Assembly (NCBI GenBank): GCA_947034885.2
Contig: OX344755.2
Span: forward strand, 1,800,501-1,864,500
DNA: 64,000 nucleotides
From: Thuidium tamariscinum
Lineage: Eukaryota; Streptophyta; Bryopsida; Hypnales; Thuidiaceae
Direction: 5' to 3'
A model generated the notes under the pieces. That model worked only from the letters and a program-made list of their open reading frames with translations. It was not told the origin of the DNA and did not search any database. The stretch's first letter is position 1. Each line of letters starts with the position of its first letter. A program made the translations under genes and the position numbers. Shown here one piece after another: positions 11,722-34,734 of this stretch.

Positions 11722-12278
11722 TTAGCTCCAAATGATTCAAAATTTATAGGGAAGCTACTCATAGATATTATGTATGTTTTATAATGAATTTTGGATATTT
11801 TTCAAAAATAATTTATTATTTTTATATAGCCCCAAAAATTTCTCACAATACTCAATTTAGGGGGTTTTAGCACCATTTATCTCCAAAACAACGAATTTTG
11901 ACATAAAATTTGGAGAAGATGGTCTCTTAGTACTTAGTAGACTTATACCTATTGTTCAAAGGAATTCTAAAAATACTTATTATTAAGTGTTGTAGAAGTT
12001 CACAAAGAGAGCTTCATCCTACATTTTTTTTCAAAGGTATAAAACATTATTTTGGTGAGTTTTTTAGCCAAATCTCATCACCAATTTTTTTTTAAAGTTT
12101 TGTATTTTTATGTATTTTTTTAAAAAAGAAAATTATTTTTTACAAATTAAAATGTCACAAATTGTATTTTCTTCACTGGAATTCTATGAGAATTCTATGT
12201 CAAAAAATCTCCAAAATTCATTATAGATACATAATAGCTATGAGCTCCCCTATAAATTTTGAGCCATTTGAAACTAAA
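11722..12278. repeat. Foldback element with inverted arms of about 80-95 bp
   Basis: The arm at about 11722-11815 is the inverted complement of about 12200-12278 (shared core aatttatagggg-agct and its complement), separated by AT-rich sequence. The right arm adjoins ggttgcaagaaacac at about 12282, related to the MITE end seen at 1378 and 30601. This suggests a divergent foldback member of that family. Precise ends and target duplication are unresolved. Confidence 0.5.
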
Positions 12279-13158
12279 GGGTGGTTGCAAGAAACACTGT
12301 TCACTTTTTGTAGCATTTTACTGGGGACTGTATTTTTGTTGCATAGTACTGCCAGTACCACGAATACTATCAGTAAACTGCCAATGCACTGTGCTTTTGA
12401 CACATCTATTGGAGTCAGGAGTCAATGCGGCCATTGAATGACATTATTTTACATATGGTATGATTAAAAAAGTTTGACAAGTGGGCAAATGTGGGATTAA
12501 AGTCAGACGTGGAAGTAATATGCCCACGTAGCAGTACTTAGGAGCAAAAGACTACAGTTTTTTTCAAAAAATACAGTGATCCAATTTTGATTCATAAATA
12601 ATCAAAAGTGATTTATTTATTTATTTCTAATTATGGCCATTTTTTCAAATCTCCTTATCATCACTTTCATCTAAAAAAAATTAGAATCACAATATTTTTA
12701 GAATTTGTAAATGTGCGCGCCATTGAGCTATATTATGTAGCATATATATCATCTAAAAATAACTAAAAATTATATTTCAAACCATATTCATAAGCTTACT
12801 AGATAGAAGAACACACCACCAAAATATCAATTCAAAAGCATTCATTTTGATTACTACAAACATGGGGAATTTCGTTAAAATGGCGGTATTCCACATACCA
12901 TTTTCACACCTTGACATCTAGGACAAGTATACATTGCTAATATCTAGGACACTTTTAGATTTCTGAAATCTATGACAAGCATAGATATTAGACCAAACAA
13001 TCTAAAAAATCTAGGGTTGGTATAGATTTCAGAAATATAGGAGAGTTGTAGATTTCCAAAATCTAGTACAGGTGTAGATCCTAGGATAGAAAAAACGGTT
13101 CAGACCGCGCAGTCTAAACTGCTCAAAAGCACCAATTTAACGAAATGGCGCTATTTTA

Positions 13159-14000
13159 CAGGGTTGTCATAACGGACGAGTTAGGGTCACCGGACGGACC
13201 GGACAGCTCCATTTTTCAAAGTAGTGGGATTTTTTTTTGGTTGACACGTCAGCTTAGAAAGCGAGATCCAGGGCGCGGACTAGGGTTGACGAATTGCAAC
13301 GTCTAGGGCAAAATTACGTCCAAAATCCGGACGTCCGGACACAGTGGACGCTGTGGACGTAGTCCTTGGCGACCAACGGATGGCATCCGTCGGAAGCAGA
13401 CGTGCGGACGGAACTTCGGACGGGCGGATTGGTGGTCGGGACTGCGGACGGAGCAGCGGACGGCACCGTCTGACAGACAAATGGGCCAATAAGTGAACGA
13501 GACTATCCGCGCGACCGCCCGTCCGTAGTGTCCGACTGCCCGTCCGCAATGTCCAACTGCCCGTCCGCAGTCTCCGACCAACCACCCGTCCGCATGGCTG
13601 TCCGGTTGCCCATTCGCTGGACGTATGTCAAAAAAAATTTCAAATGTTAAAAGACGTCCGAGGGGTAGCGTCTACGTCCCTTGGACGTCTGGACGTCCCG
13701 TCATCCCTGGCGCGGACGTCTCCGTCAGGGCGCGGACTCGTACAGGTAGGGCACGGACTTCATCGTGTCACCGTCAGGGCGCGGACGCATACAGGTAGGG
13801 CGCGGACTTCACCGTCAGCGTCAGGGCGCGGACTCGAACAAGTAGGGCGCGGACCTCAGCGTGTGCGTCAGGGCGCGGACTCGAACAAGTAGGGCGCGGA
13901 CCTCAGCGTGTGCGTCAGGGCGCGGACGTGTACAGGTAGGACGCGGACTTCACCGTCAGCGTCAGGGCGCGGACCTCAACATAAGGGTCAGGGCGTGGAC
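13159..14000. repeat. Left subterminal GC-rich region of the giant hAT element
   Basis: 13159-13620 is dense in CGGACG/CGTCCG in both orientations. 13660-14000 is an array of about ten imperfect copies of a unit near GGGCGCGGACTTCACCGTCA. The sequence contrasts sharply with AT-rich flanks. Multiple subterminal motifs of this kind usually bind the cognate transposase in hAT elements; that role is inferred here. Confidence 0.75.
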
Positions 14001-14280
14001 GGTTAGTGAGTTATGGGTTCTATAGGGTAGAAGGTCCGTAACCCCTTAAGGACTTTGTCAATTGTGAAGTGGTCAAACTTCTTATGTGAACTCATTTTAG
14101 CCTCTTGAGTATGGGTAGTGTTCAAACAACAATCTGAAATTTATTCTAATTCAAACTCTTAATTCTATATCACCATGAGAAATTACAGTTTGTTTTGTAC
14201 CAATTTTCTAATTGTTATAATTTTTGGTGCAAAAAATGAATGTAAATGAGTACAAATAGAAAAATCAATCTAAATTATTT

Positions 14281-15778
14281 GAAATAACTTTTCTTTCCTA
14301 AATCTTTTGGCCTTGAGATTTGTCATACATATAATTAACTTCAAGGTTAAGTTGTGGTAAAAATTTTGTGATGAAATACTACTTTTTGAGCTCTCGGGAG
14401 GCTTTTAAAGTTGGCCATACCAAAAAAATTCTCACTGCGAATTCGAAAAAGACTTTTTTTTATTGGTACCCCATTGTACAAAATAAAATAACCAATTGAA
14501 AATTTTGCATGCTAAGCCTTATTACTACTTTTACTTTCCAAGGTTATTCAAAATCTATCAAGATTGGTAGTGGTGAGAAACATTTCACTACTTTCAACTT
14601 TGACACCTTTTTTAGGAGTAAGGATTGAGTCTTGGTTCTTTTGCCGTGAAATTTTTGTCATGGAATAATCTCTATGTTCTTAATTTGTATAAAAAATTTC
14701 AAGGTAAAAAAAGGTTTGGTGAAGAAGATATTTGAAATCTCTCAACATGTGTAGTTCTCTGAAAGTTTTGACAATTACCAATTTTGACACCCTACCAAGG
14801 GCTAAAAAATTGGTTTCTTACCATGAATTCTTTTTGGCTGCATTTATCTCTATGTTCATAATATATGCTACAAATTTCAAGTTAAAATGAATTACCAAAA
14901 AAAAGATATACAAAATCTCACAACATGTGTGGTTATGAGATTAAGTTCTTGAGTCCTTAGTATAGTATTATTTTGTGGAGCCAAGTTTGTCACGAATGTA
15001 GAAACTCAACCTCACAACTACACATGTTGAGAGATTTTGAATATCTTTTTTGGGGTATGTGTTTTGAACTTGAAATTTGGAACATCAACATAAAGTTGAT
15101 TTTATTCAAATAATTCCATGTTAAATAGACAAATTTTCAGCCCTTGGGAGGGTGTCAAAGTTGGCAATAGTAAAAAATTTCTCATAACCACACATCTTGT
15201 CAGATTTTGTATATCTTTTTTTGGGAAATTCTTTTTAAGTTGAAACTTGTAGCATATATTATGAATATAGAGATGACTTCACCAAAAAAAATTCATGGTA
15301 AGAAACTTATTTTTTAGCCCTTGGTAGGGTGTCAAAATTGGTAATTGTCAAAACTTTTAGAGAACTACACATGTTGAGAGATTTCAAATATCCTCTTCAC
15401 CAAACTTTTGTTTAACTTGAAATTTTTTATACATATTAAGAACATAGAGATTATTCCATGACAAAAATTTCATGGCAAAAGAACCAAGACTCAATCCTTA
15501 CTCCTTAAAAAGGTGTCAAAGTTGAAAGTAGTGAAATGTTTCTCACTACTACCCATCTTGGTAGATTTTGAATAACTTTTTTTTCCTAAATCTTTTGGCC
15601 TTGAAATTTGTCATACATATAATCAACTTCAAGGTTATGCTGTGGTAGAAATTTTGTGGTTAAATACTACTTTTTGAGCTCTTGGGAGGCTTTCAAAGTT
15701 GGCCATACCAAAAAAATTCTCACTACGAATTCGAAAAAGACTTTTTTTTATTGGTACCCCATTGTACAAAATAAAATA
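14281..15778. repeat. Large imperfect hairpin with flanking direct repeats
   Basis: Arms at about 14542-14940 and 15181-15576 are inverted complements (about 400 bp each) around a 240-bp spacer. They are enclosed by a 210-bp direct repeat (14281-14490 and 15569-15778). No coding potential. Transcripts through the arms would fold into a long double-stranded stem. It lies just downstream of the transposase gene, which reads towards it. Confidence 0.8.
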
Positions 15779-16170
15779 GCCACATCACAGACCTTGAAAT
15801 TAAATTCAACTATCAAACCCAATTCATCATTGAAGTCAAAGTGCCTCTCATATTAAATAGAATTAGCCTACAAAATATATTACATGATTGCACTCACCAA
15901 TGTTTCCAATATGCACGTCAAAATGTCAAATACAAAAACATTATAGACATATTAGTCGGCTTCAATCTTTATGATAACCAAAAGTATTTATAAAATTCAT
16001 GCATTGCAATTTGCAAAGTACAATAACAATACAATGAATCTATACTTCCAAAATATGCCCACTTTCTCATCGGTTATCTAAGACATTCCTTTGGCTTCTC
16101 GTCCATCTTTCTTTTAATTGCTACAATTATCTTCAATTCTTAAAGACACGAGATCTACCATTGGTGCAAC

Positions 16171-19100
16171 TCAGTTATTGAAACGACTCGACCTACGAAC
16201 TTCTTGGGCACTAGGATCCACTACATTAGCATCTCGAACAACAACATCATCATCCTGTGGTGCCTCATCGCAGTTTGGATCATCCTCGTCATTGGCATCT
16301 TCGTTGCTGTCATATTCATCTTCTGCTTCACCACTATCTGTGGTCCAATGTCCCTCAATTTCCGAGTTTTCATTTCAAAGCTCTACAATAGTTTGACCTT
16401 GACTACGTTTGCGCTTGAACCTCTTATGTCGCAGTGCGTTGGGGTCTTCTGCATCAGAATTTATAGTGGGCCCACTTGAAACTCGAGGAACAACAAATGT
16501 CGGGGTTGACCTACTAGGTCCTGGTACGTATGTATTCAAGAACGGTTCTACCACCCTATTTGAGTCTCTTGCCCCTATTCCAAGGAGTGGATGATGAGTA
16601 GGCCTTGACGATGATGCTTCTCCAATATGTGGACCTTCTGTTCCTCCACGACCTCTAGTCCCTCCACAGCCTCCAATCCCTCCTCGGCCTCCAACCCTTC
16701 CACGGCCTCCCGTCCTTCCACGGCCTCCCATCCTTCCACGACCTTGTCGATATTGACCCACTTCATGATGAATGGAGGGCCGAGGTGCCGTAGGTGGTCT
16801 ACCACCAACGGTACCACGAGAAATGTTTTGAGGAGTCATATCAACATTTCTCATAGAGCCTAACCCTTCTTCAAAAGGTCTTTGGATGGCATTGGAAGTT
16901 GCTGGTGAAGATGGGTCTAGGGAATGTGGTGCCTGGCTAGTTTGGTCAGAACCAACTGCAGTGGATTCACGCGCAAGGTCTTCTGGTGCGTCAATAAATG
17001 CAAAAACATCATTGTAGTCTACATGCTCTAGATCAAAACGCCTTCTCACATTACTTGCTGATTGATTCCTTCCAATAGGGCGTGCCATTCTTGCATTTCT
17101 AACGTTTCTGTCATGGTGTCATTCAACAACTGTATTGCTACAAACTACTACCCCCATTCTTGTAGGCCCTGTATTGCCATCTTGATTGTGAGAAGATCCT
17201 CCACAATATGGATTTGCAGTCCTCCCCATGTTTCCGCCACCATTTCCATTTCCGCCACCATTTCCATTTCCACCACCATTTCCATTTCCGCCGTGATTTT
17301 CATTGTCATCGCCACTTCCATTACTGCTTCCATTTTCATTTCCGCCGCCATTTCCTGGAGGGAGGTCATCATCATTGTCGTTGTTGTTATGGGAGATACC
17401 ATCATCCACGTTATCGTCATTTGGATTGGCGGCCTCGGAAGAAGATGACAAAGCTTGGACTTCTGCGACCCCTTCATTTTGAGGAAGAGGAGGTGAAGGA
17501 CTGCGACGAGGATTGGGTACCCAAGGACCCCAACGACCACCAACGGGTTCTTCCTCTCCATTGTTAGCATCTCCATAGTAGTTTCTCGCTTCCTCGAGGT
17601 GATCGACACCTCGCCTCCAAAGATCTGGGTTCGCCGGATACTCTTGAGGTGCTTCATTGGCTTCCACACCAACCTCTTCTTCTTCCTCTACTTGCATTGT
17701 GTCAAATTCCCGATTGCGTTCATTCAAAGGGATCGGACCAAGGGCATCTGGATCGGAATCCTCCGAGTACATATTTGCATCATACCAACGAACTGGATCG
17801 GCTCCTGGTCTTTCTTGAAGTACACGGCTATTGGTATAAATATATACCAATGACTCTGCCTTCGCGGGGGCTAATCGATTTCGAACCCTATTGTGAACAA
17901 AGGAATACATACTCCAATTCCTTTCACAAGAGCTGGCCGAACACGTGAGGGATAGAATACGCACGGCAATTTTTGAAAGAGCCCGATCTCCAACCCTATG
18001 CCACCATTGGTGGGGAAGCATTTGTGTCACACGGATGTTGGGTGTCTCAGCTGCACTGTACGGTCCACTACCCTCCTTAAATTGAGTTAATTCTGCCAAC
18101 ACATCATCAAAAGTGACACCCACTACATCTTCCATTTTGTGGATGACTCTGTACAATGCACGTAGTGCAGTTCCGTCTACCCTGAGCGCCACGTTATCCA
18201 AGAGGTATGGATTCAAAAGGGCCGCGGCGTAGTGCGTATGTTCAAAAATCATGTCCCATCTTTCATTAAAAGATCTCTCCAAAGTGACTGCTATGTCATC
18301 TCGTAAGCTAAAAGGTGGTTCTCTCAAAGAATACACGTGTCCTCGCAAGTTGTGCATCACGAGCCACGCCCGACCTATGGCTGGTTCTCGTCCATCAAAC
18401 ACACGCAAAGCCTTCAATACGTCTTCAGTCATGTACACGTAATTCACACATCGTTGCCAAAAGGCCACATCTTCAATGGTTCTTCTGACATTACGTGAAG
18501 CCGTAGCTGCCTGTGGTCCATTCTGTTCGTTTCGTAGGGTATCATAGTAATTTATAACACGGGGGTAGTTATTCAACCGCTCCAAGACTACTCTGAGTTT
18601 CACCACTCGCTGTAACATGAAGAAATTACAAGCAAAGCGAGTTTCGCTAGGCACTACGAGTTGTAGGTTTGGACTCAACTCACGAAAAACCGACATGGTC
18701 GCATGATGGTTTCGAATGTATTGGCACAATCTTCTTGCCCTGTCAATTAAATCGGAAAATTCCTTAATCTTGGCCCAATCTTCCAACATCAAATCCAATG
18801 CATGTGCCATGCAGCCTTGCGCAAATATGTGCGGATAGGTTAGAGTAATGTCTCTCAATGCCCCAAGCATGTTTGCTGCATTATCTGTGCAAACTTGTGT
18901 CACATATTTGGAACCCACCTTCTCAATGTAAACTTTTATTTGGTCTGCTATGTAGCGCATGGTTTTCTTTTGTGAGGTAGTGTCAATTGACCCCAAAAAT
19001 ACATCACCTGCGGGGCATGACATCATCACATTCATGAGGGGCCTTCGATTGACATCATCCCAACCATCGGTACATATCGTCACCCCGTAGTGCTTGACAG

Positions 19101-19797
19101 CAAAACCAACCTTCTCTTCAATCTTCTTCTCGATTTGCAACCTCCTTGGTTCAATTAAATTAGTCTTGAACTGATGGTAAGAAGGTGGACTATATTCAAA
19201 CCTCGCCACTGAGGTTGCCCTCACAGCCTCAATGAAGGCTGGATGCCTTGCCACATTAAATGGCACATTTGCTTCATAGAAAAAACTTGCCCACTTGTCA
19301 TCCAATTCCTTCCTCTTTGCAATGTTGAATGCATCCGCCATGCGTTGCTGACGTAATGATCCCGATCTCGTAGAATTTGAACCTGCAAGACTATTGGACG
19401 TTTGTAGAATTTCATTTCCTTCAGGAACGTTTGCCCGTTCTTCCGCTCTCCCACCAGTGACCCCATCCGTCACCTCATTTTCAATGGCTTCGCTTGAACT
19501 TGCAAGCGGAGTTGCTCTAGTCGGTCCACTTTGAATTGGTTCTCCTTCACACATGTTCCCGGCATCCACTCGTAGTGGGACAAAACCTGTACAATTGGCA
19601 AACCTATGTCGCACTTCACGAGGCATACTTCGACAAATTGACCTCTCTGATTTCGCACCATATCCGAAATGTGCAAAAGCACGCTCATGTTTGTAACTGA
19701 AGGTCCCAATATAGAAAACACAAGTCACTTTAGTCCCATTCTCTGTGAAGTTCAGCCACGGTTCCCATTCCTTGGTCTGCTTCCTCTGATTTGCCAT
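16171..19797 (-). pseudogene. hAT transposase (DUF659 type) of the giant element, with two nonsense codons
   Basis: The start ATG at 19797 (MANQRKQTK) is preferred over the longer frame because an 11-kDa-class BED-like finger follows at once: KVTC, a histidine cluster and ICRSMP, with the second usual Cys replaced by Tyr. Counting from this start, the core has D at about 244 (TDGWDD), D at about 305 (TDNAAN), a CMAH motif near 329-332 and the dimerisation segment SSCERNWS with E at about 625. A Gly/Asn- and Gly/Arg-rich tail and a short acidic C-terminus follow. TGA codons at 17119-17121 and 16375-16377 interrupt the tail; both are in-frame and readable as CGA. The catalytic part is uninterrupted. 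A TATA box and a GC-rich array lie upstream at 20.05-20.28 kb. Total length about 1,208 codons. Confidence 0.88.
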
Positions 19798-20049
19798 TGT
19801 ATTCACAGATAATTTGAAATGCCTTCCCCTTCTTTGTGCTGAATTTAAGAAGACAGAAGATCTAACAGACAAAGTATCAGTAACATCAGTTAGCGCTAAT
19901 CCACTGCTTGAACTGATTTTGACATCACCTCAGCAGCAAACCAGGGCAATCTGCCACCCAAGTAGACTCACAAGGAGCTCAAAATGAATTGAAGTCCAAG
20001 AGATAGAGGCCAATGTGACAAATGTAGGGAATGCAGGGTTCAGGATTTC

Positions 20050-20058
20050 CTTTATATA
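20050..20058 (-). promoter_or_regulatory. TATA box of the transposase gene
   Basis: On the minus strand it reads GTATATAAAGG, about 250 bp upstream of the chosen ATG and directly next to the GC-rich GGGCGCGGAC array at 20070-20280. The arrangement is the same as at the other two genes of the element. Confidence 0.6.
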
Positions 20059-20069
20059 CTTGGGGAAGG

Positions 20070-20280
20070 TAGGGGCGCGGACTTCACCGTTGTCCTTGTC
20101 AACAGGGCGCGGACTTCAGTCCCAAAGTCTATGCACACCTGAATCCCTGCCGTCAAGGCGCGGACTTGAGGGCGGTGACGTTCAAAATGCACACTTGAAT
20201 CCCTAGCGGTCTGGGCGGGGACGGGAAGACAAGGCATGGACTTCAGGGCGCGGACTCAAAGTCAGGGCGCGGACGTCCTC
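20070..20280. repeat. GGGCGCGGAC array upstream of the transposase gene
   Basis: About seven imperfect copies of GGGCGCGGACTT-type units, alternating with short spacers. Same motif as in the left end (13.7-14.0 kb) and upstream of the RING/kinase pair (28.45-28.79 kb). Confidence 0.75.
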
Positions 20281-21298
20281 GTCCAGCACCATTTGCAGTG
20301 CACTTGGGCATGAGATTTTTGAATTCACCTTTTGTTGGAGCGGGAGAACCATTAATGTAATCAATTACAGCTTGTTCTAAATTCAGAGAAGACCATGACA
20401 GCAAGATGCCACCTGAAAGAGCTCAACGGCCTAAGATTTGGAAGGTACTTATGGAAGTGCATGTCCCATTTCTTGTGTTGCAAGATGTCATTCCTTAGTT
20501 CTCCTAACCATTTTACCACTTTGAAGCAAGAAATATTTTATTTCCCAAAAAAAACATACAAATTCTTTGATTTAGGAATGTTTAGGAAATACTTAATAAA
20601 TGTATAGGACATACTTAAACCGTATCATTCATACAAAACCTCTGGCTTTCTTGTTTAATAAATGCAATGGTTTTTTCATGTTGTTTTCTTTTAAAAAAAG
20701 AAGATGCCAAAATTAAGAGATCAACAAAAAAAGATTGCAAAGGAACTTCTTGGAAGACCATGTCCCCTTATTTGATTTGGAAGATGTCATTGTTTACTTT
20801 GTAAAGAAACAACATTGAAGGGAAATATATGTACTGATGAAAACAAACAACTCAAAATATTTTGTTATTCATTTTCAACATTCCTCAAGCAAATTCTTTG
20901 TTTGCGTAAAGGCTAAGTTTCATAAATTATGCTCAATTTTGTTGAATGTTTAAAGTATTGTTGTTTGGCTGAAAAGGGATTATTTATGAAATGAAAGATA
21001 TTCAATTCTTGTAGACTGTTGTTCACCACATTCAATTCTTTAAACAATTGCTATAGGGGATCAATTATGCTTTACGATTTACTAAATCTTACATTCTTTT
21101 GGATTTACGTAAACAAATTCATTTTTGGTTTATATTTCGTACAAGGGATTTTTTTTAATGAATTACTATTGCTTTGTTTGTTTTTTGCTTTTTTGTTTTT
21201 AAAACGAGTGGCAAACCATTGCATTAAATGAATACTATTTTGTTTTATTTCAATCACATGGAAGGGATTCACTTTTTACCATTCTAACTACAACTCTA

Positions 21299-21564
21299 CA
21301 AGGGATTCTTTTTGAACGAGAACTTAGATCTTCCATTCTTTTGGCTTCACGTGAAGGGAATTGTTTTTGTGGATGCTTGTTACAAATAATTCATGTAGCC
21401 TAAGGTATGAGCATCATATTCTTGAATTCACTATTCTTATAAGGGGATGCATTTTTGACCATTTTAACTACAAGGGAATCTTTTTGAACGAGAACTTAGA
21501 TCTTCCATTCTTTTGGCTTCACGTGAAGGGAATTGTTTTTGTGAATGCTTGTTACAAATAATTT
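21299..21564. repeat. Direct repeat of about 94 bp
   Basis: 21299-21391 and 21471-21564 are almost identical (start caaggga-tctttttgaacg, end gcttgttacaaataatt), 172 bp apart. They are part of an AT-rich degenerate repeat region 20.7-22.0 kb with no coding signal. Confidence 0.8.
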
Positions 21565-22102
21565 TTTTAAAACTTCCAAGTTCAGTTTCTTAGATTCACG
21601 TAGAAGGTAGTCATTTCTAAATAAAAGGTACAAGAGATTCTTCTTTTGAATGAGAACTTTACATTATTTTGGATTCACATGAAAAGATTCACTTTCTTGA
21701 ATAATTGATAGAATGCATTTTTTAAATGAACAAATGAGTTTCATTTCTTCAAATCCATTATTCATAAGTAAAGATTCTTTTTTCTGCATAATAACTACAA
21801 GGGTTTTTGTGGGGAAATGGAAAATTACAAGTTATATTTTGTTCTTAATGTGAAAGGATCCATTTTTATAAATACTTGTTACAATGGATTCTTCCTTAAT
21901 AAAACGTACAACTTAAATTGAAGTAGAAAGGTTGTAAATGGAATCCACAATTAGAAATAATTGCTACAATAAAATCTTTTTTACATGAACTTAGAAGACA
22001 TATTTTTCAGATGCATGACATAGGTTCTTTTCCGGAGGTTTAGAATACATTGATTTGTTTTTTAATTCAACCCTAAAACCATCTGAAAGAAAGTCAAACA
22101 AT

Positions 22103-22150
22103 CCAAACTCAAACCCTAAACCCTAATACTCCAAACCCTAAACCCTACAC
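22103..22150. repeat. Telomere-like AAACCCTAA motifs
   Basis: Several CCCTAAA/AAACCCT units within about 50 bp immediately before a GC-rich module. They resemble plant telo-box promoter motifs or an interstitial telomere-like tract. Function unknown. Confidence 0.5.
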
Positions 22151-23649
22151 TCCTAAAACCTTTGAACCCAAGAAGCCAAGGAGTTGGAGGCTTGAACTTC
22201 ACTGCATTGGCGCTACTCAGGGCGGGGACGTCAGGTGAGGGTGCGGACTTCAAGGCGTGGACTCCAGCACAGGGCGGGGACTCTAGGGCGCAGACTCTAG
22301 GGTGCGGACCATTCTTGGTGCGCGAACGTGCATGCACTGAAAAAGAGGTTGACCTCCCGCATGGGATCCCTCCTTGCTCCTATTTATTGCTCTTGGAAGA
22401 TGGTGTCCCTCCTTTTCATGGAAACCGGGAACCATTAAATTTAGTCATGCCTTCTTTTAGATTCCTTGTAGTGATGGAGAGACAAGAACGCTTTCTCTCA
22501 CCAATGTTTTTGTTACATTGGCTGTGTCATGGCGCGGACTTGAGGTCATGGCGCGGACGCCAAGGCATACAGCACAAGAGGGAGGACTTCGAAATGCGAT
22601 CGGGCATGAGAACCAGGGAAGCCAAGGAGTTGGAGGCTTGAACTTCACTGCATTGGCGCTACTCAGGGCGTGGACGTCAAGTGAGGGCGCGGACTCCAGG
22701 GCGCGGACGCCAGAGCATACAGCACAAGAGGGAGGACTTTGAAATGCGATCGGGCATGAGAACCAGGGAAGCCAAGGAGTTGGAGGCTTGAACTTCACTA
22801 CATTGGCGCTACTCAGGGCGTGGACGTCAGGTGAGGGCGCGGACTCTAGGGCACGGACCATTCTTGGTGCGCAAACGTGCATGCACTGCAAATGAGGTTG
22901 ACTTCCTGCATGGGATCCCTCCTTGCTCCTATTTATTGCTCTTACAAGATTGTGTCCCTCCTTTCATGGAAACCAGGAACCATTAAATTCAGTCATGCCT
23001 TCTTTTAGATTATTTATAGTGATGGAGAGACAAGAAAGCTTTCTCTCACCAATGTTTTCGTGACATTGGCTATGTCAGGGCGTGGACGCAGGGCGCGGAC
23101 TTGAGGGCGGACAATTCTAATACGTGGCGTGGACTTGAAGTCAGGGCGCAGATGTCAGGGCGCGGACGTGGTCGTACAGCACAGGAAGGAGGACTTTGAA
23201 ATGCGCTTGGGCATGAGATCCTTCAATCCTTCCTTTTCTTGGAGCGGGGGAACCTTTAATTTTAGGAAGAACAACTTGTTCTACATTCCGACAAGACCAT
23301 GAAAGCAAGATGCCAAATTGAAGAGCTCAATGGACTAAGATTTGGAAGAAACTTCGTGGAAGAGCATGTACCCTTTTGTTGTGGTGGAACATGTCGTTCC
23401 TTATGTCTTCTAACACTCCGAACTACTTTGAACCTTATTTGTGTCCCCAAGAAGAAACTAGTACTTTGAACTAAAAAGAATTTTTAGATTTAAAAAAAGA
23501 AGTCTAAATTCTTCTATTTAGCAAATGTTCCGGATATTTGAGGAAATATTTAGGGAATATAGAGGAAATGTAGTGTACTAGATACAAGGGTAAAACTTAA
23601 TTTGTTTAAAATGAAAGAAGTAGTAGAGATTTAAACAAAAAATTGTAGA

Positions 23650-25750
23650 CCTCCAGTACGCCACTTCAATTTTTCATCTCATCATCCCCTTTCCAATTTT
23701 TTATGCATCGAAAGCAAAACTATCTTATCTGAAGTCAATGCCATCTTTTTATTTCTTAATTCAATTCCTTGTCCATTTCTCTTGCTTCATTAATTAGCAA
23801 AACTCTTATATTTTTGGCCTCCAATGCAAAAATTCTTTTATGCGAAGTCATTGTCATTCCTTTTTGTTGAATTATTTAGCCCCCTTGTTTTGTCGCATCA
23901 TTCCTTATTTATTGAATCGTTTTATCTCCTTTTTTTTTACTTCATTCCTAAAACTCTTGCATTCAAATTGAATGCCAATTTTTTTTTACGTCATTCGTTT
24001 TCCTATTTATTTCCCATTAATTAGCAAAGCTCTCATTCCCCAACTCTATGCCATCCTTTTTTTGTTGCATCATTCTATCTTTTTTTGTCACCATTTTCTT
24101 TTCAGATTTTCATTTCTATTGGTCTTCATTAATTTCTAGAACTCTTTTATCGTAATTAGCAATACCAATATTTATTAGTTGAATCATTGCATTGCCTTTC
24201 CTAAATGTATTTGGCTTCATTGATTAGCAAAGCTCTTTCATCCAATGTCAATGGGAATTTTTTTTGTACCACCAGCTAACCAACCTCTTTACTATTTTTT
24301 ATTATGTTTTTTACTTTATTGTTTAGCAAAACTTGTCCATGTAACTCAATACCAATTTTTTTTCGCCCTCATTCTCGTTCCTTATTTTTTAATCCTGAAC
24401 CGAAATCTTTTCCGTCTTAATAAATTGTAATTTTTTTTCCCGTCAGTCCCTTTCCTATTTTTTTTATTCATTAGAAAAACTCTTCCATCCCAACTCAATA
24501 ATAAATGTTTTTTATGGTAAGAAATGGAAGTCTTTCCATTCGCTTTCCATTTCTCGTTTATTAAAATAGGTAATCAAACACAATGTTTGTTTCATATCTC
24601 TTTCACATTTGTTTGCTTTTATTAAGAACATCTAAAATGCACTTTCACTCCAACTAAATGACGTCTTTTTTCCTTACCTAATTTTTTTCATAGATTGGAA
24701 ATGAATTCCACTCCAATTCAATGACTTTTCATTTCATTCCGTACATGTTTTTATGATTGAATCCTATTCCAAGTCAATGACATTTTACTTCATCAATTTC
24801 AAGTCAATGAAAATTGATTTTTTCGCCACTAAATTTTTTTATATTGGGTAACCATTTTTTATTAAATATGTACCTATTTTCATGCCAATTTAATCATCCC
24901 TACTTACTTTTTCCATTTTTTTGTACTTTGGGTAACAATACACTTCCATTGTAGGTCTAGCAGTTACGTGATAGGAAATTGAAGGATGAGTGTTTGGGAT
25001 TATAGTCAATCACTTTAACTTGTAAGTGAAGTTTAGAATCATTCCCAAATAAAATTTACAAAAGCTTGGGTCTCTCTACCCCTCTTTTGGGTGCATTTAT
25101 TTTGAAAGCACTTACATTCCAAGTCAATGCCTTTTCAACTTTTCTTTTGTTGGATTCATTTTTTTTTCATTTTTTTTGGCTTAATTAGCATAATTGTTCC
25201 ATCTCAAGTTATACAAGAAGTAAATGGCACTACTCTTGTCTTCCTAACTTTTTTCCAACCGAATGCCATTCATTTTTCTTTGATCATTACCTTCCTAATT
25301 CTTCGAAATTCATTAGCCAAATGTTCCATCCCAACAGAAGACGATTTATTTCCTAAACTCTTTATAGTTTTATTTTATTGATTTGGAAGATTATTTTGTC
25401 CCAATTGAATGCCATTTTTTGTGGATATCATTCCCTCCCTAATTGTTTTTGGCAGCATTTGCAACATTATCCCATGCCATCCCAATGCACTTTATTTATT
25501 GTATATCATTCCCCCTATTTTTTTGGGGCTTGATTAGCGAAATTGTTCCATCTCACCAGAATGCCCTCTATTTTTTGGTGGTATCTCAAGTGAATGCCAT
25601 TTACTTGTTTTCTATCATTAGCAACATTAGAAATGAGTTTTTTTCCAATATAATGGCATTTGTTGTCCTTCCCTAATTTTATTCATTCATGGAAAAATGG
25701 AAATGAATCATAGTACAATACTCCAATTCAATGACATTTCATTTTAGGAT
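23650..25750. repeat. AT-rich degenerate tandem array, left copy
   Basis: Many diverged units of roughly 80-100 bp with the theme attcctaaaactcttccatcc / aattgaatgccattttttt. The reverse complement of this theme makes up 31.63-33.1 kb, so the two arrays face each other across the RING/kinase cassette. Open frames here are low-complexity and not credible genes. Confidence 0.7.
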
Positions 25751-26051
25751 ATAATTTTTGTATATGTATGATGTTGTTTCAAAAGAGTATGTGCAAAAAA
25801 AAACGAAGTGATTTTGGCCTGGATTTTGGGCTAAATAATATATATTTCATAAGCGTCATGGAATACATAGTTGGAAAAGTATATGACGAGGTTACTATGA
25901 CCATGACACCATCTAAAAATGCATGTGCCAATATCTAATATAACGAATAATATCTATTGCCGAGATCAAAATTCTATAAGCCTATATTAAGCTAGGACCC
26001 TAAGTCTTCTATGAAAACATAAGTTCACTAGCTAGATAGTAGAAACTTCAC

Positions 26052-28345
26052 TTAGTCTATGTCCATTGCACTGCCACTTGGGCCAGCCTCATTGTCATGT
26101 GTCCCTACAATGACGGGAAGGTCTTCGTCCGAGCCTAAATGAAGTCTACGAATTGCGGATCGAGTTCTCCGCGCTGGTCCATCTTCCTCCAATACAGCCC
26201 AAATGATCTGTGATTGTTTGAGGCTCTCAAGACATTGGCGAATTCGAGGGCTATGCTGTTCAAGCAAGAAATCCATCCCTTCATGTCGAAAGGTTTCTCG
26301 CCACTCTAACTCCTCTAGTTGAACTAGTTCAGCAGGGTCAGGCATGTCAATGTCGTCCACCATACGAATCCCATCGTCGTTAGTGATACGAACTCCATCC
26401 CTATTCCAAAACCACTATTTAGGATGAGGTCCAAATTGAAAGTTCTCAAAAACCTCGTCCCAATGCCCATTGAAGCACTGATAGAAGAAATTCCGTCGTC
26501 CTTGGCTATACTTGTCCTTCATTGGAATCAAGTGTTGACACACCTCCACTATTTGAGCTGGATTTTTTTCCCAACCCCATTCGGCAGAAAGGTTTTGTTT
26601 ATCCAAGGAATGGACCTTCAATTTCCAACTCCACACCAAGTCAGTTCCCCACTTTTGAGCATGATCAGGGGTATTTTCAGCATTATATTCCCAATGTGGT
26701 GGCATGTATGAAACTAATTCAAACAAATCATACAAGCGCTCATGGAAAGGAGCCTTGCACAAGGAACACCGTCGACGAACAACCATCAAGCTAATCAAAC
26801 AAAATGGATGGTACAAGTGTTCGCACGTGCCTAGGTGCATTCCACCTTCAGGGCCAAATGGATTTAGACAAATGGGACACGTAGTACCATCATACACGAA
26901 GCTTGAAGGATTTGGCCACAATAATAGTGGATTGCCGTTCTGGTCGAGGGAAGAGCCAACTTCATTCTTGAAATCCCAATGGTGTTTGGACCAATCGATG
27001 ATTGTTGTTCCACCACCAATGTCTTTGGTCACCATTTCATCCATGTTGAAATGATCATCCACGAGGGCCCACGATGTCAACCCAAAAACCCTCTCTTGAT
27101 TGTGTGCACCATAATTGTTGTCGATTTTTTGGAATTCTGACACCATTTGTTGAGTCCTGTCAACAGAAAAGACGCATGCCATCTTCCACTGGTAATATTG
27201 CTCCATCAACGCTTTCAATTGTTTTTTCAATATCAAATTGTTTGCAAGCGCGTCCGTCAATTGAGTGCTCTGGTCAATTGGCATTGCTTGACCTGCATTT
27301 GTGGGTAATTCTCCAAATGACAGTGCATCATCTTGAGTACCTTGTATTGCACCAAGTTCAACATGTTGCAGTGGAATTTCATCATTGATTGGAGGCCCTT
27401 GCGCTCCCCCTCGTGAATCCTGACCATCATTGGCCAATGTGGCTGCTTCAAGAGCATGCCGCAGCGCCTCTATCTCACGTTGTTGTTCACTTATAATATT
27501 GTTCTTCTCTTTGAGTTCATCCAATCATCCCTCAATTTATTAACATCTTCATACAAAGAATGCAGATGTGCATTGCTCTCTTCCACTTCAGTCCTCAAAC
27601 TCTGAATTCGATCTGTAGCAGCTGTAACATCAACAATTCCTATTGTTGGTTCGTCAGTAGCTGGCACCTGTCCCTCCACAACATTTTCTTGTACACCCTC
27701 TTCAGTTGCACGCTCAGCCCTCCTCTTTTTAAGTCGTAGATTTGTTCTATAGCTGAGTACATGTTGCACATGAGATCCATCAGAGTCGTTATCTGTAGCA
27801 GAGTCCTCAGTGTCATGTAATGGTGGTGCTTCAACTTGTGTAGTTGTTTTACCCAGTCCACCTTGCGGGTACCTTTTTATCCCCCTTGGAATGAATCCAT
27901 TTGCTGGTATAGGAATGTTGACTTTGTCCCCCATTGTCTTCAAAGTTGACCAGTCCATTCTCTTGTTCAACTTCAGTTCCGCATGTACCCCTCGTGCAAT
28001 GAAGAGATGCACTTCATTGCGTTTGACGTTAGGGACATCATACAATGCTTGGTACACTTCGATGCACTGATTTGTGAACTCCTCATCAATGCAATGTTTT
28101 AAATTTGCCTTGTGGAAGCGTCAGTGATAGTTGTGTCGCTCTTCTGGGAAGACCTTGTCAATGTAGCACCACTCGATGTAATTGACACAGTTTTCGTAAG
28201 TCCATGGGTCAGGCACGTCTTCCCACCCTTTGAATGCAAGCTTTACGAGATTACGTAAAACATGCAACCGCTTACGATGTTTGTTTCCTGGTCGTAGTCA
28301 GGTCTTGTCTCGTTCCTCCTTCCTTGGTCTTGTCGGTGTAGCCAT
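26052..28345 (-). pseudogene. Coiled-coil RING-H2 protein (E3-ligase-like), cargo of the giant element, broken
   Basis: Start ATG at 28345, stop TAA at 26052-26054; about 764 codons. The N-terminal region (about 250 residues) is not recognised. An acidic linker and a heptad-rich coiled coil follow. Then comes a RING-H2 finger at about 26.84-26.72 kb with the pattern C-x2-C-x14-C-x-H-x2-H-x2-C-x10-C-x2-C, and finally an aromatic-rich C-terminal domain. The RING suggests ubiquitin-ligase activity; substrates are unknown. Breaks: TGA at 28298-28300 and 28121-28123 (both readable as CGA), TAG at 26415-26417 (readable as CAG), and a one-base-class frameshift near 27525 inside the coiled coil. After each break coding resumes with matching character. 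It diverges from the kinase gene, sharing the array at 28.45-28.79 kb. Confidence 0.75.
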
Positions 28346-28444
28346 TTTCACGGGAAAATGTGAAAACCTCCCACGTGGCAATCAAAAAGACCCCGCACAA
28401 CGCTCACAACCAACTCAATGAAGAGGTGGAAGGCTGAGAGTATG

Positions 28445-28790
28445 CAGGGCGGGGACAAGTGAGGCGGGGACAAGTGAGGCGGGGACGGGTTTATATAGGG
28501 GCAGTCGGGGACGTCAAGGCGCGGACGCCATCGCTGTCAGGGCGGGGACTCCATCGATGTCGGGGCGCGGACGCCAGTGTCAGGGTGGGGACTCCTTCGT
28601 TGTCGGGGTGCGGATGCTAGGGTCAGGGCGGGGACTCCTCCGTTGTCGAGGCGCGGACGCCAGGGTCAGGGCGGGGACTCCATCGCTGTGAAGGCGCGGA
28701 CGCCTCCGTCAGGGCGGGGACGCGTGTATCAGGGCGGGGACTCCACGTGTTGGGGCTGGAACGCGATGGGGATGGGGCGGGGACGTGCGC
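28445..28790. promoter_or_regulatory. Shared bidirectional promoter: GC-rich array between two TATA boxes
   Basis: About sixteen units of the type GGCGGGGAC alternating with GGCGCGGAC. A minus-strand TATA box (CTATATAAAC, 28490-28497) serves the RING gene and a plus-strand TATA box (TATATAAA, 28799-28806) serves the kinase gene. The spacing to each ATG is 145 and about 200 bp. The symmetry suggests co-expression of the two cargo genes. Confidence 0.7.
28490..28497 (-). promoter_or_regulatory. TATA box of the RING gene
   Basis: Reads CTATATAAAC on the minus strand, about 145 bp upstream of ATG 28345, at the left part of the GC-rich array. Confidence 0.6.
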
Positions 28791-28798
28791 GGGGGGAC

Positions 28799-28806
28799 TA
28801 TATAAA
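28799..28806 (+). promoter_or_regulatory. TATA box of the kinase gene
   Basis: TATATAAA follows the GC-rich array directly, about 200 bp upstream of ATG 29003. Confidence 0.65.
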
Positions 28807-29002
28807 GCGAGTCCCTACCCTCATTCCTTTGCCAAGTCTGCACCCTATGCCTCACATGCTAGTTCGTTCCCACGGCCTATGCGAGTGAGTTTGGTGGGTG
28901 CTGGGCTTGGCCTGCATATGTGACCTGGTTTTTTTGAATTTTTTTGAAACTTTCTTGCTTCGGGATTGATACGGAGGCCCATTGGAACTTTTTTTTTCCA
29001 TT

Positions 29003-31435
29003 ATGGCAGGTGAAGGGAGTGGATCGGTGGACAAACGTCCTATGTTTGTAGACTTGGATGATGTCGGTGAGACGGTAATTCCATGTACAAACACGTTGAT
29101 GGCCTCAGGTTCATCAAATCCTTCCTCATTAGGCCAGAAAAAACGCAAGAAAGAACAAAATCCCCAAATACCTGGACATGAATTCATAGTCGAAGGGAGA
29201 AAAATGGCTGTGGTGTTCTACACTCATCGAAGTACAAATATGTTGAATAGGGAGTATGTGTTGCTCAACGAAGAAGGGTACCACAAACTGACGAGGGACC
29301 TGTGAAGGGAGCTGGAGTCAAAGTTTGAAGAATCAGAAGAATTCAACAACTTCTCAGATTATTGGTTGCACCAAGAGTGGCTGGATAAACAAGTGGTCGC
29401 CTTGACAACCAATATAGTGTGTAATTGGTGTTATCACACGGGTAAGAAAGAAAATGGTAGCGACTGGGACACGGAGGACAGAGAGATGGTTACAAAAGTG
29501 AAGGAGATTCAAACGTTTGCTCAACGATATTCTTCTTCACGTAGAAAAAAGCAAGCACCATGGAAAGTGACAATTGAAGAAGCGATAACGGCTCATTGCG
29601 TGAGTGGAACATTCAAGTGGCTAGAAAGTTCCGTGAAAGTCATCCCCATGCCAGAACAAATTGCGATTGGGTCGTATGGGACCGTGAGGAAGGTGATCTT
29701 TACGAAACTTGAGAGCATTCCTAGTTGGATATTTTTTGCTGGGAAGAGCTTGAAGACTAAGAATGAAAAGGAGAAACACCAAGCAATCATCAATGAGACA
29801 GGAGGGTGTCCAGTGAATCATCCTAGCATCATTCGAATTGCGTACCTCCACCCTAAAACAATGGAAGGCTACAGGGTCGTTGCAAGAAACACCTACCAAA
29901 AAGCGTAGCGTTTTGCAACGTAGTCTTTTTTTTTTCGGGAGTACTTTAAAATTAGAAAAAAAAGTTTTAAAAAAAGTAAAAAATATGTTTCATGTATAAA
30001 CCTTTAAGAAGAATATACCCTAGAAAGGAAAATCATAGGAAAAATCTCTAAGTAGGAAATCCAGAAAAGTGCAAAATCTCATGAAAATTAGTACTTCGAC
30101 ATTTTAATTTGTAAAAAATAGGAAAATCAATTTTAAGGAAAACTAAAAATTGGCCATTTGAGGAAAGTTGATTTTGATGAGATTTGACCAAAAGTTCGAT
30201 CTTAGAACCATTACCATTGTTCAAAAATTGCGTGCCAAAAAAAAAAAATTGTACTCATGTGGACATAAAAAAACATATTTTTAAATTTTTTTTTGGAATT
30301 TGTAGGTTTTACAGCTATGCAAATAGACCATGAAAGTTTCGTCATCAAATCATTAAATTTAGACACTGCGAACGTAATGATAACCATAAACGTAATTTTG
30401 TGACGCTCAACGAAAATGTTTTTTAAATATAAAATAATTTTTTTTAATTCTGAAAAATAAGGGATCTAATAAACTTCAAGTTAGGTATGTTCAATAAAAA
30501 TTTCATTTTCATTGGACTTAATCTCCAAAAGTTATTGTAGACAACAAAAAAGTGGTTCAAATTGTGACATGAAATAGGACAGGTGTTTCTTGCAATGACC
30601 CTACACACTATGGTGGAATGGAGGATCTCTAATTTCTTTCTTGTCCAAATGCAATGCGAAAGTGAGCGAAGCACTGGACGTGGATGAGATTGAGAATGAA
30701 AGTTCTACGGGGCTGACGAAAGAGGAACTTTCATGGGTTGCAACGTATCGGAGAAATAGAGTGAAATTGGCATTGTCATTACTTGTCATTGTGGGGAAAT
30801 GCCATGATGTGCAGTACATGCACAACGATATATCTCCATCCAATGTTTTGCTCCATTTTGATCCTTGGGAACGAAATAGGGTGTACATAGGGATATGTGA
30901 TTGGGGACTTTCTAGCCGAGTTGTGGAGAAGGAGCCATCAAGGTATGGCTATCCCAGTATGGAGATCCTTGCGAAGGAGAAAAAAAAGCAAAGGTTTGCG
31001 GCCCCAGAATTGTTTTATGTATACGGAGAGCAGGGTTCATCAAACTCCATTGAGGCCATGCAAAAAACGCATTTGTATTCTATGGCAGCTGATGCATATG
31101 CGGTGGGATGGATAGCTTCTGCAATTTGGAATGAAGAGTGGGACCCTAAATACTTCACAACGAAAAACCCAGAGCAGTATCAGAATTTCAGGATCAAATT
31201 GGGAAGCCTCGTAAAAGAAGATGTGCATGAAAGGGCAACAGTGCCAGATGTTCTAGACAAATTGAAGAAGGCCCCCCATTGTTGGATGATGCCGGATTGT
31301 TGTTATCGTACATTGTATTTTGTTTTTAATACTTTTTGTAGTTTAGCATATATTTCAGGCATAGAAGAAAATCATCCTCATAGAGGAGCCTATGTACCTA
31401 CTTGGCAATTGCCAAACAGCTTGAATATATATTAA
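29003..31435 (+). pseudogene. Divergent protein kinase, cargo of the giant element, split by a MITE
   Basis: Start ATG 29003 (MAGEGSGS). About 200 N-terminal residues with no recognised domain precede a kinase domain. Seen motifs: glycine loop IGSYGTV (about 29668), Lys in FAGKSLK, catalytic loop HNDISPSN (about 30822, HRD variant), DWG in place of DFG (about 30898), AAPE (about 31000) and DAYAVGW. The catalytic Lys, Asp, Asn and metal-binding Asp are all present, so the fold could be active. The DIS-x-x-N loop resembles fungal FunK1-type and Crinkler-associated kinases; that link is only suggestive. Breaks: TGA at 29303-29305 (readable as CGA) and the 728-bp insertion 29874-30601. Deleting the insert plus one TACA restores one frame of about 566 codons. 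It is divergent from the RING gene. Confidence 0.8.
29874..30601. mobile_element. 728-bp MITE inserted in the kinase gene
   Basis: Ends GGGTCGTTGCAAGAAACACC and the complement of GGGTCATTGCAAGAAACACC; flanked by TACA at 29870-29873 and 30602-30605. It interrupts the kinase domain between the beta-strand region and the hinge. The interior is AT-rich and non-coding. Related ends occur at 1378, 34525 and 34734. The superfamily is uncertain because a 4-bp duplication is unusual. Confidence 0.8.
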
Positions 31436-31629
31436 ATCGGATGTGTAATTGTGTACCATACTCAAAATCCCAAAATATATTAATATGCCCTTTCATTGTT
31501 CTTTCCTCATGGCATTTTTTATGACTTCTATGAATTGATGATAAAACGTAAATGAAAACTATAGATGCAATAGTTTGGTATAAAAATGCATACACTTAAT
31601 TTTTTTCACTATGCCTATGTTTTAGGAGT

Positions 31630-33660
31630 TAATGAAGCCCCCCCCAAAGAAGGGAAAATGAATGATCCAACAAAAAAATGAATGACATTGAAGTAGAATG
31701 GAAGAATTTTAGGAATGAAGAGAAAACAAAAAAAGGAAAAGGAAAGATGGAACAAAAAAATAATGGCTTTGACTTGGGATGGAAGAACTTTAGGAAATAT
31801 TACAAAAATAAAATAGGGAAGGGAATGATTCAACAAATAAAGAGGAACAATGAGTTGGAATAAAGTAGTCCTGCTAATTAATGACGGTAAACAAAAAAGA
31901 AAAAGGAATGATTCAACAAAAAAGAGAACAAGAACTATGAGTTGGGATGGGAGAATTGTAGGAATGAAGCCAAAAAAATAGGGAAAGAAAATATGGAACA
32001 GAAAATGAACATTTTGCTTTCAATTGGGATGGAAGGGTTTTAGAAAGGAGGCCCCCCAAAAGGAAAGGGAATGATGGAATTACAGAAAAATGGCTTTGAA
32101 TTAAGATGGGAGAGTCTTGTTAATTAATGAAGCAAAACAGAAACGAAGATGGAATTATTCAAGAAAAACTAAAAGAAAAACTATGAGTTGGGATGGTAGA
32201 GTTTTAGGAATGAAGCCAAAAAAATAAGAGAGAGAATGACCTAAACCAAAAAGAATGGCATGGAGTTGGGATAAGAAGAGCTTTGCTAATTAATAAAAAA
32301 CATAGGAAACGAAATGATAGAACAAATATGAAATGGCATTCAGTTCAGATGGGAGAGTTCTAGGAATGAAGCCAAAAAAATGGGAAAGGGAATGATTCAT
32401 CCAAAAAAATGACAATGATTTGGAATGAAAGAGTTTTAGGATTGAAGGAAAAAAATAGAAAAGCTTTGTTAATTAATGAGGCGAGAAAAATAGAAAAAGG
32501 AATGATTTAACAAAAAACAAATGGCATTGACTTAGGATGGGAGAGTTTTGCTTATGATGCAAAAGAAATTGGAAGGAAATGATGGAATAATAAATTAAAG
32601 TTGTTTGGGTGTTAGAGTGAAATGATTTAACACTTTAAAATTTTATGGAATGGTGGAGTCACTAAGGATATGGAAATGGTTTGGGTGCTACAGTGATGTG
32701 ATCTAACATTAAAAAAACTTGGAATGGTTTGGATGTTAATGTGATATGAATGATAAACAAAAATAAGGAGGGAAATAAAATGTTGTTGGGTTTTGAAAAT
32801 CCGTTTAAGCTTTATGTTAACAAAATGTTGTTGATAAAAGCAAACTCAATGAAAGAGGGATAAGTCCACAAAAAATAAGGAGTCAAAGTGATTTCAACTA
32901 ACAACCAACACAAATTACCATTGAGTTGGGATAGAGTTGGGATAGAGTTGGGATGCCACAAAAAATAATGGAATTGAGTTCAGATGAAAGAGTTTTGCTA
33001 ATGATCAACCAAAAATAAATGGCCTTTGGTTGGAATAGAACAATTTTGGTAATCACATGAAATAAAATAGGGAAAAGAAATCATTCTACACTAGACAAAT
33101 GGCATTGAATTAAAATCGAAGAGTTTTGGTAATGATGCGAAGATATAGGAAAGGGAATGATTCCGCCAATAAAAATAATCGCACAGACTTGGAATGGAAG
33201 TCTGCTTCAAAAGTCAATGTCCAAAAGGGGAGGTAAAGTGACCCAAGCTTTTGAAAAGCGTACCAATTTATTTTAGGAGTAATATGATCTAACATTAAAA
33301 GAAATAAGGGATGGTGGAGTGCTTTGGAATATAGAAATGGCTTAGGTGTTAGAGTGATATGATCTAACACCCAAAAAATATATGGAATGGTGGAGTGATT
33401 TGGATATGGAAATGGTTTGCATGTTATAGTGAGGTAATTTAACACCTCCTAAAAATATAAAATGGTGTAGTGATTTGGATATGAAAATGGTTTGGATGTT
33501 AGAATGATGTGATTTCACACCTAAAAAAAATGGAATGGTGGAGTAATTTGGATATGAAAATGGTTTGGGTATTAGACTAATTAGAGTGATATGATGTAAC
33601 ATTAAAAAAAATATAAAGTGTTGGAGTGACTAGGAAAGTGGGAATATGGAATATAAAAAG
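31630..33660. repeat. AT-rich degenerate tandem arrays, right copy
   Basis: 31.63-33.1 kb: diverged units around ggaatgattcaacaaaaa / gagttgggatggaagagtttt, the reverse complement of the theme at 23.65-25.75 kb. 32.6-33.65 kb: a second family with units of about 72 bp around ggagtgatttggatatggaaatggttt. No credible genes. Confidence 0.7.
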
Positions 33661-33699
33661 GAAATATGTAGAAGCATATTAATTAATTTAAGGTGGTCC

Positions 33700-33893
33700 C
33701 AAGTCCCGTCCGCGCCCTGACGATCGCGTCCCCGCCTTGCATGTTCTGGAATCCACATGGCAGCCACGTGGCCTATTTTTCCATTATCAAAAAGTCAACT
33801 ATGTGTTGACTCTACTGGACGGGCGAGAGCTCTATCGGACGTCCCGGACGGACGGACGGGCGAACCGGACGTCCGCCAGGTATGACAACCCTG
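33700..33893. repeat. Right subterminal GC-rich region of the giant hAT element
   Basis: Contains GTCCGCGCCCTGACG and tightly packed CGGACG/GGACGG motifs up to the terminal inverted repeat, mirroring the left end. Confidence 0.7.
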
Positions 33894-34239
33894 CCATTTT
33901 AACGAAATTTCCCATAAACATAGTGAATCCTTATTCACCTAATCATTAGAGAAAATATAGACTCTCTGGAGGGCTGCTAGGGTTTGACAAACCAGTCTAT
34001 ATACATAGTCCTGAGAAGTTACAGAAAGGGCGGAATCTCTGATAGAGGTGCGTGACAGAGGTGCGTCAGCTTGTGTGAATATCTTGGGTATGTATGAGTT
34101 TCTTGCCTTTTTTAATTCCTGATGTGTCAGTGAAAGGTACTATCGCATACTCCTCCATTTAACTAATGGTTCTTTGCAATTCAATGCACTGACAATTGCA
34201 AAACTGACATAAACAACAATAGGGGAAAAACATTTGTGA

Positions 34240-34734
34240 AGGGAAAATAAATGTAATCGAAAGGGTCGGGCCCTCCGGCAGTTTTTAGCGGCCATCCCGA
34301 GAGTCCATATTTTCTCTAATGTGACGAGTGAACAAAATTAATTTTTAAATACAAAAAAAAATTCCAAAATTTGAAAAAAAAATGTAGAACCCTTAAGCTT
34401 GAAGTTAGTTATATCCAATAAAAATTTCAAGGTCAAAGCTTCTTGGACTCAAAAGTTATACTACAAGAGAAGAAAATCATTTTCATTGTGACAACAAATA
34501 GGACCGGTGTTTCTTGCAATGACCCTAAAACACAAAAGTTATGGTTAAAATTTAAAAAAAACTAGGGTGCAAGGTTGTCACATTGGACAAGTTATTATTC
34601 ATTTCTTGTCACAAGTCTTCAGTTCATTTCTTATCCAATTGAAGAAAAAATGAATAGTAACTTGTCTAATGTGACAACCTTGCTAGGGTGTAACGAAACG
34701 CAACAAATAGTACAAGTGTTTCTTGCATTCACCC
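34240..34734. mobile_element. Two MITE ends of the GGGTCATTGCAAGAAACAC family
   Basis: Right ends at 34525 (tgtttcttgcaatgaccc) and 34734 (tgtttcttgcattcaccc). The sequence before 34525 (agttatatccaataaaaatttcaag region) matches the interior of the 29874-30601 element. Left limits are not clear. Confidence 0.5.
34570..34682. mobile_element. hAT MITE, 113 bp, with a perfect 8-bp target duplication
   Basis: The ends CAAGGTTGTCACATT and their inverted complement extend into arms of about 35 bp. Flanked by CTAGGGTG at 34562-34569 and 34683-34690, an exact 8-bp duplication. The end CAAGGTTGTCA is close to CAGGGTTGTCA of the giant element, so a shared or related transposase is plausible. Confidence 0.9.

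Follow-up and report, generated by a model that had tools for sequence, protein, structure and literature searches.

Can a hAT transposon grow far beyond a few kilobases (kb), carry further genes and still move as one unit? The question is raised by a 64,000-nucleotide stretch of the genome of the moss Thuidium tamariscinum (contig OX344755.2, positions 1,800,501 to 1,864,500; hereafter, the window), in which a 20.7-kb segment bounded by short inverted ends holds genes for a hAT transposase, a RING/coiled-coil protein and a protein kinase. On the sequence evidence assembled here, this segment is almost certainly a giant hAT unit with a history of mobility, and the locus as a whole is very probably best explained by a cut-and-paste element of around 17.2 kb that travelled in one piece. 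The anatomy shows the unit and its past joint movement, through the ends, the target-site duplications, two empty sites, a large number of copies and a constant trio of genes.

Ends and target-site duplications

The 13-bp end CAGGGTTGTCATA is exact at 13159–13171 (+) and 33881–33893 (−), and the window contains no further exact copy. The flanking octamers, CTATTTTA and CCATTTTA, are identical at 7 of 8 positions. The host site is a small miniature inverted-repeat transposable element (MITE), in which ATGGGGAATTTCGTTAAAATGG at 12862–12883 is 21/22 identical to its complement at 33894–33915. Because both MITE terminal repeats lie in the flanks and the octamers agree at 7 of 8, the exact base at which the element inserted can be named. 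The exact ends, the near-identical flanks and the MITE host site, all claimed in a preliminary description of the locus, are thus confirmed. The boundary features are as follows.

12862–13158, no strand: left part of the host MITE up to the insertion point, including the left target duplication; terminal repeat 21/22 identical to 33894–33915
13151–13158, no strand: left target-site duplication CTATTTTA (octamer comparison of the flanks)
13159–13171, + strand: left terminal inverted repeat CAGGGTTGTCATA (exact 13-mer match)
33881–33893, − strand: right terminal inverted repeat CAGGGTTGTCATA (exact 13-mer match)
33894–33915, no strand: right target duplication CCATTTTA (33894–33901), with the host MITE's right terminal repeat (repeat and octamer comparison)

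Genome-wide (363 Mb), CAGGGTTGTCATA occupies 224 exact places (107 forward and 117 reverse) versus 1 + 1 for the reversed control, which excludes a chance origin of the ends. Within the first 100 of these places, which run from C1 into part of C4, every adjacent facing pair no more than 137 kb apart (36 pairs) was tested for duplications together with the window copy; four adjacent facing pairs separated by 464 kb to 1.16 Mb were left out. Flanking octamers agree at 7 or 8 of 8 positions in 35 of the 37 pairs and perfectly in 31, whereas left and right flanks taken from different elements never reach 7 of 8 (0/1,332). The search for paired ends proposed in the preliminary description thus found them elsewhere, with 8-bp duplications and 17–137 kb apart; elements of 34.5, 34.6, 36.6, 42.5, 50.7, 55, 94 and 137 kb all agree at 7 or 8 of 8. 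Two pairs fall short: those of a 228-bp element (6 of 8) and of a 23.8-kb copy, E5.

Shorter elements with the same ends also occur in C1–C4, at approximately 0.23–0.29, 3.8–4.0, 5.6, 6.8–8.1 and 10–11 kb, most of them with perfect duplications. Within the window, 0.7 kb from the right end of the giant element, a small element (34569–34683) has 39-bp inverted ends (after one base) starting CAAGGTTGTCACA, which resembles the left end of the giant.

A constant trio of genes

We read eight further copies whole: seven giants (E1–E7, 17.0–34.5 kb) and one 3.8-kb copy (E8). All seven giants carry the three genes in the order and orientation seen in the window, and six of them have perfect duplications; E8 has none of the three. 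The genes of the window copy are listed below.

16171–19797, − strand: hAT transposase gene, with DUF659 and hAT dimerisation domain (Pfam, homologue search)
26052–28345, − strand: RING/coiled-coil protein gene; stops and one frame change here, open frame of 761 amino acids in E2, E4 and E7
29003–31312, + strand: protein kinase gene; interrupted in this copy by one stop and by an insertion that splits it, open frame of 526 amino acids in E1, E2 and E7

Kinase and RING matches lie inside all 14 tested C1–C4 pairs of at least 16.9 kb (the seven giants read and seven others), as judged by comparing coordinates by eye; the transposase was examined in the seven giants and the window copy. Among the genome-wide matches listed, the giant family accounts, after merging, for 49 kinase loci and 44 RING loci; set aside for this count were 25 kinase matches of around 30% identity and RING matches of 41–55% identity that belong to sister groups. 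A divergently oriented RING gene lies within 2 kb of 35 of the 49 kinase loci and within 10 kb of 39. These numbers exclude single-copy, syntenic genes lying without such ends, and the same trio in E1–E7, with the kinase–RING pair in all 14 large pairs of ends tested, bears out the earlier claim that both genes are carried besides the transposase.

Open transposase frames (1,176–1,234 amino acids) are present in E1, E3 and E6. The RING gene of E1 is interrupted by an insertion (L019 4155–6137, − strand) with a 661-amino-acid frame that has no Pfam match.

Native length and decay of the window copy

E3, at 17,190 bp and with a perfect duplication, provides a reference for native length. The window copy is 96.7% identical to it across 16,195 aligned bases; it lacks 66, 235 and 516 bp and has gained insertions of 437, 1,285, 117, 732 and 1,747 bp. 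The window copy measures 20.7 kb because of these insertions into a core of around 17.2 kb. Of the 20.7-kb hAT element first described, the giant unit therefore stands and the length does not, as alignment with E3 assigns the remainder to later insertions.

13272–13708, 13987–15271, 22546–22662, 29869–30600 and 31631–33377, no strand: insertions relative to E3 (alignment, edges approximate)
13987–15271, no strand: AT-rich stretch with inverted repeats, absent from E3 (alignment, edges approximate)
29869–30600, no strand: 732-bp insertion with inverted ends, within the kinase gene (comparison with E3)
31631–33377, no strand: AT-rich minisatellite-like stretch, absent from E3 (alignment)

The same comparison rules out an intron as the cause of the gap in the kinase gene of the window, which is the 732-bp insertion. 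Stops are present in all three genes of this copy, which is an old, decayed representative of the giant family. Elsewhere, the longest blocks shared with E3 are around 96–99% identical and shorter, repeat-rich blocks less so; a 5.5-kb block present in the window, E1, E2 and E4–E7 is 96.5–98.8% identical.

Empty sites

The flanks of E1–E8 were rejoined, retaining one duplication, and compared with the window and the fetched sequences. Joined flanks of E2 match window positions 12280–12438 at 134 of 160 positions, unbroken across the junction, and those of E4 match 11836–12034 over their full 192 bp (166/199 positions), the relative in the window having 7 additional bases, in small gaps just beyond the junction. 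Window positions 11836–12438 thus contain uninterrupted relatives of the repeats that host E2 and E4. Among the sequences compared, the joined flanks of E1, E3, E5, E6 and E7 match their own flanks only, those of E8 their own flanks and weak partial matches, and the rejoined host MITE of the window has no second copy. The empty-site check suggested earlier therefore succeeded in part: two such sites were found, in the form of related repeats. Joint mobility, which the preliminary description had only deduced, is supported by these two sites together with the duplications and the trio in 7/7 giants.

The three protein families

The transposase matches PF05699 (E = 7.6 × 10^−9) and PF04937 (E = 3.1 × 10^−36) and, weakly, the Hermes transposase in the PDB (E = 0.03). 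Acidic motifs CTDGWD, CTDN and CERNW, which we take to be putative catalytic motifs, occur in E1, E3, E6 and the window open reading frame (ORF). Pfam gave no N-terminal BED finger match for the transposase. A C-x2-C...H pattern is present in E1, E3 and E6; in the window copy the second cysteine of this finger is replaced, and the frame has two in-frame stops in the C-terminal tail.

Homologue searches returned 27 proteins for the transposase, 17 for RING and 15 for the kinase; named sources include Orobanche minor and Aureobasidium pullulans, both for the weakest transposase matches, and a Bacilli metagenome-assembled genome (MAG; kinase). A piece of such an element filed under the Bacilli MAG (P0046) is probably contamination. 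Pfam zf-RING_2 matches 15 of the 17 RING members at E ≤ 0.01, the first member falling short of the curated cut-offs; Pkinase matches 14/14 kinase members. The kinase of E1 retains HND, DWG and APE, presumably its catalytic motifs. The RING and kinase proteins form families of their own. The kinase structure model (mean predicted local distance difference test (pLDDT) score, 80) matches kinase folds generally; the RING model is poor (mean pLDDT, 55), carries no weight and has no PDB match at E = 0.001. Profile searches of viral contigs with the RING, kinase and transposase alignments found nothing, nor did a scan of genome contigs with the transposase alignment, and Rfam gave no match at gathering score.

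Pooled ratios of nonsynonymous to synonymous polymorphism (pN/pS) among copies are much alike for the kinase (0.61; 11 copies, two with a stop), RING (0.57; 4 copies) and the transposase core (0.62; 6 copies); the whole transposase has 0.81 (3 copies).

A GC-rich motif and a model for movement

The motif GGGCGCGGAC has 21 copies in the window, all within the element (shuffled expectation, 0.00). They lie close to the left end, upstream of the transposase gene, in a middle block, in the RING–kinase interval (one exact copy and many near matches) and, inverted, at the right end. This layout is largely kept in the other gene-bearing copies; the counts differ from copy to copy, and an exact motif is missing from the right end of E6.

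13271–13974, + strand: left subterminal stretch with 10 exact GGGCGCGGAC (motif search; left-end motifs in other copies too)
20073–20274, + strand: four GGGCGCGGAC motifs upstream of the transposase gene (motif search)
22218–23167, + strand: internal GC-rich motif block with a 150-bp tandem repeat (repeat and motif search)
28445–28750, + strand: array of GC-rich, GGGCGSGGAC-like units in the interval that separates the divergent RING and kinase genes (motif search)
33708–33717, − strand: right subterminal GGGCGCGGAC motif (motif search)

By analogy with the hAT family, the transposase would recognise both the short terminal repeats and the subterminal motifs rich in GC, excise the element and insert it elsewhere with an 8-bp duplication. 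Because GGGCGCGGAC lies near the ends, before the transposase gene and between the RING and kinase genes, the transposase or a host factor may also regulate all three genes through it.

Inside the element, at 22111–22161, lies a short run of AAACCCT, the telomere-type repeat of plants.

Sister elements and related sequences

E7 holds a nested 17,098-bp element, both ends of which share CAGGGTTG and which has the perfect octamer ATACAAGG. Its transposase frame of 1,044 amino acids is open and, where the two match, shares 43% identity with P0001; its kinase gene is broken, its RING gene has 787 amino acids, and the order and orientation of the genes are unlike those of the giant family. The 4.9-kb contig L001, which is filed under a cyanobacterial MAG and probably stems from contamination by eukaryotic DNA, contains an intact RING homologue (39% identity to P0028) with a GGGCGCGGAC array upstream and CAGGGTTGTCAAA around 500 bp past the gene; no kinase match was found in it. 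An end match with up to three mismatches is expected by chance in L001 (154/200 shuffles) and the observed match has one, so the argument rests on its place, adjoining GGACGG-type sequence and the motif array. As the kinase–RING pair recurs in the nested element and RING stands beside an end in L001, each at low identity, it has been kept over a long divergence, and it is an old, lasting part of the giant hAT lineage.

The genome matches include a further sister group, of 25 kinase matches at around 30% identity, 16 of them without an internal stop. Two sampled copies share blocks of 94.6–97.4% identity scattered over 20 kb and have RING-like frames of 463 and 408 amino acids. The sister-group sequences L089 and L090 (C9:22576100–22596099) and L091 and L092 include an intact 526-amino-acid kinase.

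Role of the kinase–RING pair and alternative explanations

With moderate confidence, we favour an accessory role within the element for the kinase and RING proteins, rather than accidental cargo. They may assist transposition or the evasion of host control, for example by controlling the level or timing of the transposase or host silencing. More tentatively, and with less than even confidence, the pair may be a transposon-owned control module that predates its carrier families, was combined with different giant transposons and lets large elements move by acting on the repair, cell cycle or silencing of the host; its carriers would be the giant family, the nested sister element and the other sister group, which has at least 25 kinase copies and, in the 20 kb read, no such transposase.

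Several observations weigh against a giant element with lasting partners. For ten of the 49 kinase loci, the nearest 10 kb hold no RING match in divergent orientation; the transposase is seen solely in the copies read, with no genome-wide figure; and in none of the eight gene-bearing copies read (E1–E7 and the window) are all three frames open together. E5 has no matching duplication (5 of 8). The pN/pS values of around 0.6 reflect past constraint and decay together, which makes them weak evidence for selection. Finally, the 20 kb read from the sister group is matched by none of the 27 transposase proteins, so the pair may also travel otherwise.

The alternative that survives best, which we nevertheless regard as unlikely, is that a hAT element captured a host kinase–RING neighbourhood once and has carried it since without benefit. 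Stops in the kinase and RING genes of many copies would fit such passengers, and other plant transposons are known to hold captured genes (PMC6431247). Against a single idle capture stand the recurrence of the pair with a transposase only 43% identical to P0001, the RING gene adjoining an end in L001 and protein identities of around 30–40% to the giant family; moreover, the 17 RING and 15 kinase homologues carry no known plant host gene name, and most are nameless. We rejected Pack-type capture of host-gene fragments because several copies have full-length open frames.

It is highly improbable that two smaller hAT elements around a host segment moved jointly once as a composite: the inner GC-rich motif blocks (20.1–23.2 kb) do resemble subterminal sequence, but the window has no exact internal end, and the gene layout is repeated in seven further copies, of which six have perfect outer duplications. 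That the ends flank ordinary genes by chance, with no mobile unit, has negligible probability; this reading is favoured only by the imperfect 7-of-8 duplication of the window copy and contradicted by the end counts, trio copies, duplication test, kinase–RING loci and empty sites.

Comparison with known giant elements

The hAT superfamily includes Ac/Ds, hobo and Tol2, and its typical elements are a few kb long. The element studied here shares the hAT dimerisation domain and DUF659, short CAGGG ends and 8-bp duplications with that superfamily, and differs from typical members in its length of around 17.2 kb and in two extra conserved genes. By its transposase, ends and duplications, we classify it as a hAT that appears to be new in size and in its lasting kinase–RING pair.

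ToxhAT of wheat-pathogenic fungi is described as a hAT-type unit of around 14 kb with 74-bp terminal repeats and eight annotated genes including ToxA, transferred among fungal species (PMC6737239, PMC9594970). ToxhAT is likewise a large hAT-type unit with extra genes inside terminal repeats; what sets the moss family apart is a fixed kinase–RING pair and dozens of copies in one genome. A review of giant transposons covers Helitrons, Polintons/Mavericks (Polintons typically 15–25 kb) and Teratorn, which also carry extra genes but use other transposition enzymes, and the word hAT does not occur in it (PMC6431247). No protein-primed DNA polymerase B of Polintons or retroviral-type integrase was found among the seven Pfam-scanned ORFs (of 19 in the element of at least 100 amino acids), no dedicated search having been made. 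Starships have a tyrosine recombinase (DUF3435) near one end, not a hAT transposase. We rejected a Starship identity because none of the seven scanned ORFs encodes such a recombinase; the likeness is that the Starships of fungi are also giant and cargo-carrying (PMC9594970). Pack-MULEs similarly hold plant genes inside terminal repeats, but according to the review they carry gene fragments, include none above 7 kb in the cited set and are moved by a transposase in trans (PMC6431247).

No giant plant hAT with kinase and RING genes was found in our literature search, mainly of openly available texts. Cut-and-paste transposition is said to lose efficiency above around 6 kb of cargo (PMC6431247). 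Even so, a 17-kb hAT unit reached dozens of copies, one of which holds a nested element of its own kind. If the kinase and RING proteins are indeed lasting partners of the transposase, they would represent a new layer of transposon–host regulation; the partnership can be tested directly on the recurring copies, the sister families and the empty sites.

A neighbouring gene

Outside the element, window positions 36981–37757 contain a gene for a 258-amino-acid protein with four chitin-binding (hevein-type) domains, coded by a 150-bp tandem repeat.

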